Origin: an uncultured Chitinophagaceae bacterium
GTDB taxonomy: Bacteria > Bacteroidota > Bacteroidia > Chitinophagales > Chitinophagaceae
DNA length: 64,000 bases
Assembly (NCBI GenBank): GCA_903870685.1
Contig: CAIQDX010000004.1
Coordinates: 1-64,000, forward strand
Direction: 5' to 3'
Part shown: positions 9,847 to 57,490 of the stretch, piece after piece
Numbering within the stretch: position 1 is the first letter of the stretch
How the letters are laid out: every line of letters begins with the position of its first letter
Notes under the pieces: generated by a model
Seen by the model: only the letters and a program-made list of their open reading frames with translations
What the model was told of the DNA's origin: nothing
The model's database searches: none
Program-made: the position numbers and the translations under genes

Positions 9847-11073
9847 ATGTCATCTATTAAAGAACAATTTGAAATTCCTGCAAAACTAAAGACTTGGTCA
9901 TATGCCCTGATTGGCGTGGGTTTGCTGGCTTTAATCGTTGGTTTTATTACCAAAGGAAGAGGAACTGAAGAAGAGCAGGCTGTGTTTATTGGTACCATCA
10001 TGTACAATACAATTTTCTGGACATTGGTTACTAATGCAAGTATGTTTTTTATTTGTATCACAACATTAGCAATGGGCGGATGGCAACAATCTTTTCGTAG
10101 AATTCCGGAAGCTATTTCTACAATGGTTCCAATCTTTGGTTCAATAACAGTTGTTGTTTTATTGTATGTAGTTTTTTCCGGCAATCATCATATTTATCAT
10201 TGGTTAGATACAAATGCAGTTGCAAGCGATGAAATATTAAAAGGTAAATCAGGATTTTTAAATGTGAAATTTTTTACCATCTGGACTTTATTAGCTGTTG
10301 GTCTTTGGAGTTTGTTAGGATGGAGAATGAGACAATTAAGCAATGAAGCAGATGTTGCTGCATTCAACGGCGAAACCGGTCCATCATTTATTTGGAGAAA
10401 TACAGTAAGAGCAGCCATGTTTACAGTATGGTTTGCATTAACTGTTGGATCAACTGTTCCATGGTTATGGTTAATGAGTTTAGATGCTCATTGGTACAGC
10501 ACCATGTATAGTTGGTACACTTTTGCAAGTTCATTTGTTAGTGGTATGAGCTTAATTGCATTATGGGTCATTTATATGAAGAACAAAGGATATTTAGAAT
10601 ATACCAATGAAGAACATCTACATGATCTTGGAAAATTCATGTTTGCATTTTCTATCTTCTGGACTTACTTATGGTTCTCTCAATACATGTTGATCTGGTA
10701 TTCAAATCAACCCGAAGAAACATTGTATTTCAAACACAGAGTGCAAGGTGTATACAAAGGAATTTTCTTCTTAAACCTGATCATTAATTTTATTTGTCCC
10801 TTATTAATTTTAATGAAGCGTTCAACTAAAAGAAATTATACACTGGTAACATTTATGGCAGTGTTAATCATCTTTGGGCACTGGATAGATTTTTATCAAA
10901 TGGTAATGGGAAGCATCAGCAAAGAACATGTAACATTAGGCTGGTTAGACTTTGGCATTCTTAGTTTATTTGTTGGATTGATGATATTATTTGTTGCAAA
11001 AGCTTTGGCTAAAAAACCTTTGATCGTAAAATATCATCCATTCTTAAAAGAAAGTATTATTCATCACACATAA
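9847..11073 (+). CDS. actF: Alternative complex III integral membrane subunit F
   Basis: 408 residues with about ten transmembrane helices, paralogous in fold to ActC (quinol:cytochrome c oxidoreductase 'quinone-binding subunit 2'). Family features are the FWTYLWFSQYMLIWYSNQPEE segment and a Trp/His-rich loop with HHIYHWLD. It closes the act gene set, 33 bp after actE and 45 bp before coxB, so the complex and the oxidase are probably transcribed together. ACIII-oxidase supercomplexes of this kind are known from Flavobacterium. Confidence 0.92.
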   Translation: MSSIKEQFEIPAKLKTWSYALIGVGLLALIVGFITKGRGTEEEQAVFIGTIMYNTIFWTLVTNASMFFICITTLAMGGWQQSFRRIPEAISTMVPIFGSITVVVLLYVVFSGNHHIYHWLDTNAVASDEILKGKSGFLNVKFFTIWTLLAVGLWSLLGWRMRQLSNEADVAAFNGETGPSFIWRNTVRAAMFTVWFALTVGSTVPWLWLMSLDAHWYSTMYSWYTFASSFVSGMSLIALWVIYMKNKGYLEYTNEEHLHDLGKFMFAFSIFWTYLWFSQYMLIWYSNQPEETLYFKHRVQGVYKGIFFLNLIINFICPLLILMKRSTKRNYTLVTFMAVLIIFGHWIDFYQMVMGSISKEHVTLGWLDFGILSLFVGLMILFVAKALAKKPLIVKYHPFLKESIIHHT

Positions 11074-11117
11074 TCTTTACAAGTTTTTATTGTTACTTAT
11101 TAAGCAAACCTAACAAC

Positions 11118-12182
11118 ATGACAATTTATCTAACAATAGCAGTAATCATTCTTGTCTTTCTCATCATCTTTCAAATATCGAAAGCAAGCGAATACGTAGG
11201 AATATTAAAAGGCGAAGAACAAAATCGAAAGAATGCCAATAAAGTAAATGGCTTCTTAATGATAAGCTTTTTAATAGTTGGCTTGATCGGTGTTTGGTAT
11301 TGCAATGATTTATTATTTAGTAAAACATTATTGGCACATTCATCTGCAAGTGTACAAGGTGAAAGAGTTGATTCGATGTTATGGATCACATTGGCAATTA
11401 CAGGAATTGTTTTTATCATCACTCAAATATTATTATTCTGGTTTGTTTATAAATATCAGGAAGATGATAAACGCAAAGTTTTTTATTTCGCTCATAGCAA
11501 TAAATTAGAATTTTTATGGACCGCTGTACCAGCCATTGTTTTAACAGGCCTGGTGATTTTTGGTTTGCGTAACTGGTATTATTTTACAAGCGATGCGCCA
11601 AAAGACGCAATGGTTGTAGAAGTTACAGGAAAACAATTTGGATGGATATATCGATATCCGGGAAGTGATAATCAATTTGGAAAAAAATATTATAAAAACA
11701 TAGATCCTGCTTCGAATTCTTTAGGATTAATCTGGAGTGATAATGCAACATTAAATTTAAAAGACGATCCTGCATCGCATGATGATATTGTTACCGAACA
11801 AACCATGTATGTTGTAAAAGGTAAACCTGTAAAATTAATTATCGGTTCACGTGATGTGATACATGATGTTGGTTTATCTCAGTTTCGTTTAAAGATGGAT
11901 GCTGTTCCAGGCATTCCAACTACCATGTGGTTTACACCAAAATTTACCACTGCTGAAATGAAAAAGATCACAGGCAACGAAAATTTCCAATACGAAATAA
12001 GTTGCGATCAAATGTGCGGCAATGGTCATTATTCAATGAAAGGTGTTATTGAAGTTGTTGAACAGGAAGATTATGATTTATGGCTAGCAAAACAAAAACC
12101 ATTGTACTTACAAAGTTTTCCGGATAAAGATCCTAATGCTCCTAAGACCGATAGCACAGCAAAAACGATAGCAAAAAATTAA
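11118..12182 (+). CDS. coxB: Cytochrome c oxidase subunit II
   Basis: 354 residues. There are hydrophobic segments at ~2-20, 46-62, 92-112 and 133-150, more N-terminal membrane segments than the usual two. The cupredoxin domain follows, with the CuA ligands visible: His in VIHDVGLSQF, then C-DQM-C-GNG-H-YS-M. No cytochrome c domain is fused at the C-terminus, which suits direct electron delivery by ActE or ActA. Directly followed by coxA. Confidence 0.94.
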   Translation: MTIYLTIAVIILVFLIIFQISKASEYVGILKGEEQNRKNANKVNGFLMISFLIVGLIGVWYCNDLLFSKTLLAHSSASVQGERVDSMLWITLAITGIVFIITQILLFWFVYKYQEDDKRKVFYFAHSNKLEFLWTAVPAIVLTGLVIFGLRNWYYFTSDAPKDAMVVEVTGKQFGWIYRYPGSDNQFGKKYYKNIDPASNSLGLIWSDNATLNLKDDPASHDDIVTEQTMYVVKGKPVKLIIGSRDVIHDVGLSQFRLKMDAVPGIPTTMWFTPKFTTAEMKKITGNENFQYEISCDQMCGNGHYSMKGVIEVVEQEDYDLWLAKQKPLYLQSFPDKDPNAPKTDSTAKTIAKN

Positions 12183-55263: not shown

Positions 55264-56184
55264 ATGTCTTTAATTGTAGTTGGTTCAATGGCTTTCGATG
55301 CAATTGAAACACCGTTTGGTAAGAGTGATAAAATTGTTGGTGGCGCTGCAACTTATATTGCATGGTGTGCCTCAAACTTTACAAATGTTAATCAGATCTC
55401 AGTTGTTGGTGGCGATTTTCCGCAGGAAGAATTGGATGCTCTAACGGCTCGTGATGTTGCATTGGAAGGTGTGGAAATAAAAAAAGATGAAAAATCTTTT
55501 TTCTGGAGTGGTCGTTATCATATGGACATGAATAGTCGTGATACATTGGTTACAGAATTAAATGTGTTGGAACATTTTAAACCAGTTGTACCCGATAGTT
55601 ATCAGGACAGTGAATTTTTAATGTTGGGAAATTTAACGCCATCGGTACAGATGAGTGTGATCGATCAATTAAAAACTCGTCCTAAATTAATTGTAATGGA
55701 CACCATGAATTTATGGATGGACATTGCAATGGATGATCTAAAAGCTTTATTAAAAAAAGTGGATGTGTTGATGGTGAATGATAGTGAAGCTCGCCAATTA
55801 AGTGGTGATTTTTCTTTAGTTCGTGCTGCGAAAACAATTATGGGCATGGGACCAAAATATCTCATCATTAAAAAAGGAGAACATGGTGCATTGTTATTTC
55901 ATGAAGACAAAGTTTTCTTTGCACCGGCATTACCATTAGAAGAAGTATTTGATCCAACTGGTGCCGGCGATACTTTTGCTGGTGGCTTTATTGGTCATAT
56001 TGCAAAAACAAAAGACATTTCTTTCGAGAATATGAAAACAGCCATCATTGTTGGTAGTGCCATGGCAAGTTTTTGTGTTGAAAAATTTGGTACACAAAGG
56101 ATAAGAGAAATTACAAAAGAAGATATTGATGCTCGTTTGAAAGAATTTGTTCAATTAGTAAATTTTGATATTGATTTGGGCTAA
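55264..56184 (+). CDS. PfkB-family carbohydrate (or nucleoside) kinase
   Basis: 306 residues. The N-terminal GG pair region is KIVGGAATYIAWCASNF. The C-terminal signature is FDPTGAGDTFAGGFIGHI with the catalytic Asp. The closest kind by eye is the adenosine/ribokinase branch, but the substrate cannot be fixed. The start is 25 bp after a TAGTTTCG promoter-like element. It is not co-directional with sugar genes next to it. Confidence 0.88.
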   Translation: MSLIVVGSMAFDAIETPFGKSDKIVGGAATYIAWCASNFTNVNQISVVGGDFPQEELDALTARDVALEGVEIKKDEKSFFWSGRYHMDMNSRDTLVTELNVLEHFKPVVPDSYQDSEFLMLGNLTPSVQMSVIDQLKTRPKLIVMDTMNLWMDIAMDDLKALLKKVDVLMVNDSEARQLSGDFSLVRAAKTIMGMGPKYLIIKKGEHGALLFHEDKVFFAPALPLEEVFDPTGAGDTFAGGFIGHIAKTKDISFENMKTAIIVGSAMASFCVEKFGTQRIREITKEDIDARLKEFVQLVNFDIDLG

Positions 56185-56196
56185 CAAAAAAATAAT

Positions 56197-56228
56197 TTTG
56201 GCATTAATTATTTTAGACAATACTTTCG
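56197..56228 (+). promoter_or_regulatory. Promoter of the asd leader
   Basis: TTTG (56197-56200), 20 bp, TACTTTCG (56221-56228), a good match to the TTTG/TAnnTTTG pattern. The transcript would begin near 56234, only a few bases before the leader ATG. Confidence 0.6.
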
Positions 56229-56236
56229 CACACGAA

Positions 56237-56299
56237 ATGAATAATTTGAAACATACAAAGAACATAAAGAAGATCATCTCAACAGGAGAAGATGCTTGA
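56237..56299 (+). CDS. Putative leader peptide of asd (attenuation control)
   Basis: The ORF encodes MNNLKHTKNIKKIISTGEDA and ends with TGA at 56297-56299. Thirteen of 20 residues (one Met, three Asn, two Thr, four Lys, three Ile) are aspartate-family amino acids, the group whose synthesis needs Asd. It lies directly downstream of a promoter, and codons 16-19 contain the 5' arm of an antiterminator stem. Part of the Lys/Asn/Ile excess could be due to AT-rich DNA, but the position and alternative stems fit classical ribosome-mediated attenuation. Confidence 0.6.
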   Translation: MNNLKHTKNIKKIISTGEDA

Positions 56300-56361
56300 T
56301 GTTTTAAGTATGTACAATCATAACTAACTGAAGGCCTTCTCCTAAACGGGAAGGCTTTTTA
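56284..56361 (+). terminator. Transcription attenuator upstream of asd
   Basis: Terminator: GCCTTC plus CC (56334-56342, one bulged T) pairs with GG plus GAAGGC (56348-56355), loop TAAAC, followed by TTTTTATTTTTT. Antiterminator: AGGAGAAG (56284-56291) pairs perfectly over eight bases with CTTCTCCT (56336-56343), using the same bases as the terminator 5' arm. A ribosome at the leader stop codon would cover AGGAGAAG and allow termination. One stalled at the Lys/Thr/Ile codons would leave it free. A 120-bp stretch with a degenerate copy of the dispersed repeat follows before asd. Confidence 0.7.
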
Positions 56362-56482
56362 TTTTTTATGAAATAAAAGTTGAAGCATTTGTTGCAGTAA
56401 AAGTGAGTGACACAACGAAGCGAAATTGAAACACAGAAGTTTGAAACATAAAAATTATTTTATCAATTAAAAACAAAACAAA

Positions 56483-57490
56483 ATGAAAGTGGCAGTTGTT
56501 GGAGCTACCGGTTTAGTTGGCTCAAAAATGTTACAGGTATTGGCAGAAAGAAATTTTCCGGTAACGGAATTAGTTCCCGTTGCATCCGAAAGATCGGTTG
56601 GTAAAGAAGTAGAATTTAAAGGAAAGAAATATAAGGTGGTTTGCATGGCAGATGGTATTGCAGCAAAGCCGGCCGTAGCCATATTTTCAGCTGGTGGTGG
56701 CACATCGTTGGAATGGGCACCGCAATTTGCAGCAGCAGGAATTAAAGTGATCGATAATTCATCGGCATGGAGAATGGACCCAACAAAAAAATTAGTTGTT
56801 CCTGAAGTGAATGCTGATGTTTTAACTGCCGATGATTTTATTATCGCTAATCCAAATTGTTCAACCATTCAAATGGTAGTTGCATTGCAACCATTGCATG
56901 CAAAATATAAAATAACAAGAGTGATTGTAAGCACTTATCAAAGTGTTACAGGAACAGGTAAAAAAGCAGTTGATCAGTTATTTGGCGAAAGAGCAAAAGC
57001 AGAAAAAGGAAGCACAGAAGAATACCCGATGGCCTACAAATATCAAATTGATTTGAATGTTATTCCGCAGATAGATGTTTTTTTAGACAACGGTTACACC
57101 AAAGAAGAAATTAAAATGGTGAAAGAAACATGTAAGATCATGCAGGATGATAATATTCGTGTTACTGCTACAACTGTTCGTATTCCGGTAATTGGCGGTC
57201 ACAGTGAAAGTGTGAATGTTGAATTTGAAAATGAATTTGATTTGTATGAAGTGAAAGAATTATTAAGCACTGCTCCAGGAATTATTTTACAGAACGATGA
57301 TGCGAATCAAATTTATCCAATGCCTTTATGGGCACACGAAAAAGATGAAGTATTTGTTGGAAGATTACGCAGAGATGAAACGCAACCAAAAACATTAAAC
57401 ATGTGGATCGTGAGTGATAACCTTCGCAAAGGCGCTGCTACCAACGCTGTGCAAATTGCAGAATATATGATGGGCAAAGGATTGTTATAG
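56483..57490 (+). CDS. asd: Aspartate-semialdehyde dehydrogenase
   Basis: 335 residues. It reduces aspartyl phosphate to aspartate semialdehyde, the branch point for lysine, threonine, methionine, isoleucine and diaminopimelate. The NADPH site is KVAVVGATGLVGSKML. The catalytic Cys is in IIANPNCSTIQMVVAL. The C-terminal RIPVIGGHSESVNVEF carries the catalytic His. It is preceded by the attenuator leader at 56237-56361. Confidence 0.96.
   Translation: MKVAVVGATGLVGSKMLQVLAERNFPVTELVPVASERSVGKEVEFKGKKYKVVCMADGIAAKPAVAIFSAGGGTSLEWAPQFAAAGIKVIDNSSAWRMDPTKKLVVPEVNADVLTADDFIIANPNCSTIQMVVALQPLHAKYKITRVIVSTYQSVTGTGKKAVDQLFGERAKAEKGSTEEYPMAYKYQIDLNVIPQIDVFLDNGYTKEEIKMVKETCKIMQDDNIRVTATTVRIPVIGGHSESVNVEFENEFDLYEVKELLSTAPGIILQNDDANQIYPMPLWAHEKDEVFVGRLRRDETQPKTLNMWIVSDNLRKGAATNAVQIAEYMMGKGLL

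Follow-up and report, generated by a model that had tools for sequence, protein, structure and literature searches.

A predicted lysine-sensing leader-peptide attenuator ahead of asd and dapA in the Chitinophagaceae

A short element upstream of asd in an uncultured Chitinophagaceae bacterium is, on comparison with related leaders, very probably (probability about 0.86) a ribosome-mediated transcription attenuator, with charged tRNA-Lys as the signal it reads. The element occupies positions 56197-56366 of the window (the whole stretch of 64,000 nucleotides analysed here), where a Bacteroidota-type promoter, a 20-codon ORF and an intrinsic terminator all lie ahead of asd. It shows the features by which such attenuators are recognised: a predicted ORF between promoter and terminator, enrichment in codons for the pathway product, mutually exclusive stems that share a strand, and the placement of the codons relative to these stems. 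The basis of this assignment is sequence comparison, namely conservation, codon choice, covariation, footprint geometry and the identity of the target genes; from these we infer where transcription starts, that the ribosome stalls and transcription terminates, and in which direction expression responds.

The promoter (56198-56228, forward strand, as for all features of this locus) consists of a TTG at 56198-56200, at -33, and the -7 box TACTTTCG at 56221-56228. It fits the Bacteroidota promoter consensus TTG-N19-21-TAnnTTTG and not that of sigma-70. Across the 93 related leaders compared below, the -7 box is complete (6/6) in 88, against 3.1 in shuffled sequences, and occurs together with a correctly spaced TTG in 77, against 0.16 in shuffles. 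The ATG of the leader ORF follows the -7 box by about 8 nt, and transcription is predicted to start at this ATG or a few nucleotides before it. The same spacing, 7-9 nt, is found in 65 of the 93 Lys leaders, which therefore look like near-leaderless attenuators. Bacteroidota genes mostly lack Shine-Dalgarno sites. The nearly leaderless ORF (56237-56299, stop codon TGA) encodes the peptide MNNLKHTKNIKKIISTGEDA, in which Met, Asn, Thr, Lys and Ile account for 13 of the 20 residues. It is followed by the terminator (56330-56366), made of regions 3 and 4 and a T run; its hairpin at 56330-56359 has 12 pairs and carries region 3, CTTCTCCT (56336-56343), in the 5' arm. The unit from promoter to terminator measures about 130 nt, and the 286 nt upstream of asd fold better than shuffled sequences (z -3.4, 0/200). 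The promoter, the ORF with its 13 residues of these kinds and the terminator with its T run are thus present as the preliminary description had them. The proposed regulated gene, asd (56483-57490), encodes aspartate-semialdehyde dehydrogenase, as identified by NCBIfam models TIGR01296 (425 bits, cut-off 324) and NF011456 (442 bits). We also note an interspersed repeat at 56365-56462, between the terminator and asd, parts of which match about ten further places in the same genome; copies of it occur in other genera as well.

The element recurs throughout the family. A DNA search of 39 genomes found it before asd in the four other genomes of the window's genus, and found a second copy of about 80% identity in the window's own genome and in three of those four congeners. 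The gene behind the second copy is dapA, which encodes 4-hydroxy-tetrahydrodipicolinate synthase, the first enzyme of the lysine branch. This second copy goes beyond the preliminary description, as does the covarying hairpin A:B described below. A covariance model, R1, built from 14 leaders, matched (E 0.1 or better) in 208 of 294 Chitinophagaceae genomes and in 87 of 101 genera. The other 86 of the 294 genomes gave no R1 match, and in two unmatched family members (L192 and L212) there is no leader upstream of asd. Among the matches listed (150, with more in existence), 94 loci were examined, chosen with a preference for strong matches and second copies, and 56 listed matches lie outside this set. 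Dropping one identical leader left 93 distinct leaders, 14 of which had built R1, so that the recovery of those 14 is no test of the model. The next gene is asd in 78 of the 93 and dapA in 14, and one leader lies at a contig end; a co-oriented asd or dapA thus stands directly behind the leader in 92/93. Since R1 is blind to the neighbouring gene, this agreement constitutes independent evidence. In a separate set of 80 loci from named records, 23 have a forward match (E 0.011 or better) just before asd, among them Limnovirga soli, Niastella yeongjuensis, Flavihumibacter, Filimonas and Parafilimonas, which identifies the carriers of the element as Chitinophagaceae, the family named in the preliminary description. 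The Mucilaginibacter, Pedobacter, Sphingobacterium, Dyadobacter and Hymenobacter records of the same set gave no match, and two of its loci (L233 and L247) have too little upstream DNA to be judged.

A spread through the whole phylum was considered and rejected, as the search of the order outside the family returned weak rows only (E 2e-4 or worse). Twenty of these weak rows, chosen by hand, held two asd/dapA leaders (genome G054), three His leaders before hisG, one Met/Cys-rich ORF and 14 sequences with nothing recognisable by eye. Inspection by eye of the asd upstream regions at 16 loci outside the family revealed no Lys leader; the set inspected in this way also held two family members, of which L178 has the leader and L192 lacks it. 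A script scan of 20 asd loci, L212 included, likewise gave no Lys leader among the nine with an identifiable asd start. Homoserine dehydrogenase genes were scanned for Thr/Ile/Met-rich leaders at 30 loci (one unparsed), where only chance-looking short ORFs were seen in upstream DNA that is often short, down to 18 nt before the first Met.

Conservation of the leader ORF centres on its lysine codons. Lys makes up 25% of the residues after Met1 in 88 aligned leader rows, compared with 7% across 50 of the window's long ORFs, and the anchor position of the alignment is in frame in 88/88 rows. In the window, the control codons are AAG AAG (Lys11-Lys12, 56267-56272). The aligned rows have Lys at the anchor in 86/88, at the next codon in 74/88 and a Lys-Lys pair in 82/88, and the first Lys of the pair is kept in 91 of the 93 leaders. 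The second Lys alternates between AAA (44) and AAG (30), which indicates that the amino acid is conserved and not the RNA alone. The first Lys is written AAG in 83 of the 86 leaders that have Lys at the anchor and whose downstream gene supplied at least eight Lys codons; from the Lys codons of that gene, 25.7 ± 4.0 would be expected. AAG accounts for only 14% of the Lys codons of the window, and the window's genome has two tRNA-Lys genes, with anticodons UUU and CUU. The preferred control codon is thus a minor codon with its own tRNA, and charging of the tRNA-Lys(CUU) isoacceptor may set the sensitivity of the leader. The core of the peptide, KHTKxTKK, is conserved family-wide, with a variable C-terminal half and a total length of 14 to 23 residues. 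Part of this peptide conservation (the His and Thr of KHTK) may come from RNA pairing.

Three RNA pairings emerge from the comparison. The antiterminator helix joins region 2, AGGAGAAG (56284-56291), to region 3, and can be drawn in 93/93 leaders with 5 to 12 pairs, being doubtful in L086, where the best run is A/T-rich and located elsewhere. In 44 of the 93 leaders, this 2:3 helix continues into the terminator loop, where the terminator itself requires nothing. Covariation was evaluated by swapping partners among 38 non-redundant leaders picked by a greedy 70% identity rule, with permutations that ignore the leader tree. Under this test, the own-partner score for 2:3 is 703.5 against 645 ± 12 for permuted partners (0/20,000). 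Hairpin A:B joins segment A (56249-56266, codons K-H-T-K-N-I), which precedes the Lys-Lys pair, to segment B, ATGTTTTAAGTATGT (56299-56313), just past the stop codon; its pairs are present in the minimum free energy fold, and it scores 630 against 551 ± 14.5 (0/20,000, z 5.4). The terminator stem 3:4 gives z 13.9. A short trp-like 1:2 stem, in which the codons that follow Lys-Lys would pair with region 2, had been drawn by RNAalifold on 14 sequences and was rejected by the same test (P 0.75, z -0.7). Because A:B and 2:3 covary and this last stem does not, the set of pairings is taken to be A:B, 2:3 and 3:4. Region 2 lies within the loop of A:B, so that A:B and 2:3 together would form a pseudoknot. 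A:B may act as a brake on antitermination when there is no translation, or as a pause hairpin keeping polymerase and ribosome in step. The pairing of region 2 with the 5' arm of the terminator had been proposed from this one sequence, with the suggestion that related genomes be examined for a conserved short ORF and covarying stems; the pairing holds, and both the ORF and the covariation are found across the family, where their absence would have counted against the proposal.

The geometry of translation agrees with these pairings. In the footprint model used, the ribosome edge was assumed to lie 15 nt away from the P-site codon's first base, and the figures depend on this choice. Region 2 is fully free in 93/93 leaders with the first Lys codon in the A site and in 89/93 with the second. 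Mean coverage of region 2 at the four codons after the Lys pair is 7%, 36%, 73% and 96%, and this rise marks the Lys pair as the last codons at which a stall leaves region 2 free. A ribosome that has reached the stop codon hides 70% or more of region 2 in 93/93. The earlier proposal that region 2 is exposed by a stall and hidden at the stop codon therefore agrees, for a stall at the first Lys codon, with the modelled geometry of every leader compared. Eleven leaders (12 rows less L086) have their stop codon ahead of region 2 or level with its start; the distance from Lys to region 2 is 14-20 nt in these and 13-21 nt in the 81 others, so that a ribosome at the early stop still covers region 2. 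We further note a short leader class of 14-16 residues (for example MTLVKHTKRNKKHS), with the stop codon before region 2, which recurs in several genera and includes L084, L115, L117, L119, L120 and others, as well as the named loci L214-L216, L222, L225 and L260.

Folding calculations bear on when the decision would be made. For a transcript that lacks region 4, the mean probability of 2:3 is 0.94 when a ribosome occupies the second Lys codon, 0.005 when it has moved on to the stop codon and 0.60 on ribosome-free RNA; this last value indicates that A:B alone is a weak brake in the folding model. Once the leader is finished, the terminator prevails in every ribosome state (0.80 to 0.96), and at equilibrium with the ribosome on Lys it has a mean probability of 0.80 against 0.15 for 2:3. 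As the terminator wins at equilibrium even with the ribosome on Lys, control must be kinetic, decided during transcription.

Taken together, these features suggest the following mechanism. Transcription would begin near the ATG of the short Lys-rich ORF. When lysine is ample, the ribosome would pass the Lys codons, reach the stop codon and hide region 2; region 3 would be left unpaired, the terminator 3:4 would form and asd would be off. When lysine is short, the ribosome would wait on the Lys codons and hold segment A, blocking A:B. Region 2 would then be free to pair with region 3 while region 4 is yet to be transcribed, so that the terminator would be lost and asd transcribed. The same element ahead of dapA would place asd and dapA in one lysine regulon, and the Thr or Ile codon just before Lys-Lys in asd leaders would probably add a response to other products of the asd branch.

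Three other explanations of the element have to be weighed, and the evidence above argues against each. The persistence of the KHTKxTKK core across the whole family might reflect selection on a functional small basic protein, with the terminator merely ending its transcript. This is highly improbable, since the C-terminal half is free to vary in sequence and in length (14 to 23 residues), covarying RNA pairings overlap the codons, and the gene that follows is asd or dapA in 92/93. A lysine-binding riboswitch or a protein-binding leader, in which the ORF would be incidental, could likewise account for a conserved and covarying hairpin such as A:B. Against it stand the open frame in 88/88 rows and the codon bias at Lys, together with the Rfam comparisons: at gathering score the window yields tRNA only and no family for the element, and neither the lysine riboswitch nor the T-box is among the 11 weak rows of a permissive scan of 56150-56500. 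We consider this reading very unlikely. Its own promoter and terminator and its length of about 130 nt would also suit a small RNA transcribed upstream of asd as a unit of its own; against this, 92/93 leaders stand directly ahead of a co-oriented asd or dapA, and the 2:3 pairing would have no role in such an RNA, which makes this explanation scarcely credible.

Within the attenuator reading, Lys is the main predicted signal: asd and dapA both lead to it, and Lys-Lys is the conserved core of the aligned leaders. Besides Lys, asd feeds Thr, Ile and Met, which dapA does not. Of the 78 asd leaders, 66 have Thr (40) or Ile (26) immediately ahead of Lys-Lys; the dapA leaders have Val (8), Ser (5) or Cys (1) in this place, and Thr or Ile in 0/14. 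The contrast of Thr/Ile with Val/Ser/Cys holds in all 14 genomes that yielded both copies and gives a Fisher value of 8e-10, which is overstated because few lineages supplied the 14 dapA leaders. Met in codons -7 to +1 is confined to asd leaders (36/701, against 0/126 in dapA leaders). These observations suggest that the asd leader also senses Thr and Ile at the codons up to Lys-Lys. The preliminary description had offered Lys, Thr or Ile as the signal. Lys stands; Thr and Ile are plausible for asd leaders only, at the codons up to Lys-Lys; and Ile13, Ile14 and Thr16 of the window peptide are unlikely signals, as a ribosome stalled there would begin to cover region 2.

The main reading could thus be refined so that the asd leader senses Lys together with Thr and Ile, perhaps also Met, and the dapA leader Lys alone. 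The split at the residue before Lys-Lys and the confinement of Met favour this refinement; on the other side, the dapA leaders derive from few lineages, one or two codons are possibly too few for stalling, and a Thr at -4, within the arm of A:B, is common to asd and dapA leaders. We put it forward tentatively, at slightly under even odds. If true, each copy of the leader would sense only those end products that its enzyme feeds. A fuller reading would combine this division of signals within a family-wide Lys attenuator with the minor codon AAG, read by tRNA-Lys(CUU) as well as tRNA-Lys(UUU), where tRNA-Lys(CUU) charging may set sensitivity, with A:B in place of a 1:2 stem, and with membership in a group of several near-leaderless attenuators, the His-rich ones upstream of hisG among them, that would govern amino-acid synthesis in these bacteria; as a whole we regard this as a possible reading that falls short of being probable.

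The element resembles several known systems in part. In the trp and his attenuators, an antiterminator and a terminator exclude each other and region 2 is hidden by the ribosome at the stop codon; the Lys leaders are predicted to share this design. Strand 1 of the trp attenuator pairs with strand 2, whereas in the Lys leaders a 1:2 stem is unsupported, its place being taken by the helper hairpin A:B, with region 2 in its loop. The enterobacterial thr leader has a peptide rich in aspartate-family residues, a terminator and a ribosome-stalling logic, three features that the window element is predicted to share. It controls the thr genes and senses Thr and Ile, and differs in this from the window element, which has Lys codons, asd and dapA as targets and a nearly leaderless ORF. 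Thr_leader (RF00506) is nonetheless the Rfam row most like the window element in the permissive scan; membership in that family was rejected, its score being 21.6 bits (E 0.072) against a gathering score of 55. The lysine riboswitch (L-box) binds free lysine and controls lysine genes at the RNA level. Lysine control at this level would be common to both, and the Lys leader has no Rfam match to the L-box model.

Published descriptions come close from different sides. According to parts of a study of Sinorhizobium meliloti, the trpL ORF of the rnTrpL attenuator is leaderless, as the Lys leaders nearly are, with the differences that it concerns Trp and an alphaproteobacterium (PMC10117765). The same source describes SEP5 as a suggested leader peptide, whose short ORF contains six Thr codons and three Lys codons and precedes a gene called aspartate dehydrogenase; it is the nearest suggestion to ours, limited to Sinorhizobium, and the passage on it reports neither an antiterminator nor covariation (PMC10117765). 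In the same phylum and another family, passages on Flavobacterium psychrophilum describe structured 5' elements before pheA and hisG and clues for leader-peptide attenuation of amino-acid operons, a mode of control that would be common to both cases (PMC9723704); lysine does not occur in the main text of that article. A study of Actinobacteria, in the parts covered, places lysine under L-box riboswitches and His, Thr and Phe under attenuators (PMC1262725). In PMC2965389 the terms lysine, asd, dapA, lysC, Bacteroid and Cytophaga have no occurrence, and no lysine attenuator in Bacteroidota was found in the portions of the open-licence literature consulted, PMC4833913 and PMC7366714 included.

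The comparison strongly supports the prediction of a lysine-specific, family-wide variant of ribosome-mediated attenuation. Lysine genes are familiar cases of riboswitch control. An attenuator in front of them would add lysine to the amino acids under leader-peptide attenuation and, in most of the genera sampled from a single Bacteroidota family, would unite asd and dapA as a lysine regulon. More than 90 natural variants are at hand, which differ in target gene (asd or dapA) and in where the stop codon lies (two placements) and nearly always keep AAG as the control codon; they make isoacceptor charging, leaderless initiation and the coupling of ribosome and polymerase directly testable in Bacteroidota.

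Other amino-acid genes of the family and its order have comparable upstream ORFs. In 25 family genomes, 19 of the 20 hisG genes found (loci L323-L342) have, 120-236 nt upstream, a short ORF containing three or more His codons, which lends some support to the attenuator reading of the Lys leaders. One of these ORFs, the His-rich MKQTTHIHHHHLPIG, belongs to the window's own genome (L334, G000:C120, upstream of hisG at 10679-11221, minus strand). By their sequence, these ORFs are a candidate histidine attenuator similar in style to the Lys leaders. In another family of the same order, a Met/Cys-rich short ORF, MKKTMNCQMCMMYIQDV, with a terminator, lies before an O-acetylhomoserine sulfhydrylase gene (L144, G391:C23:92941-93060), and is a possible methionine/cysteine attenuator.
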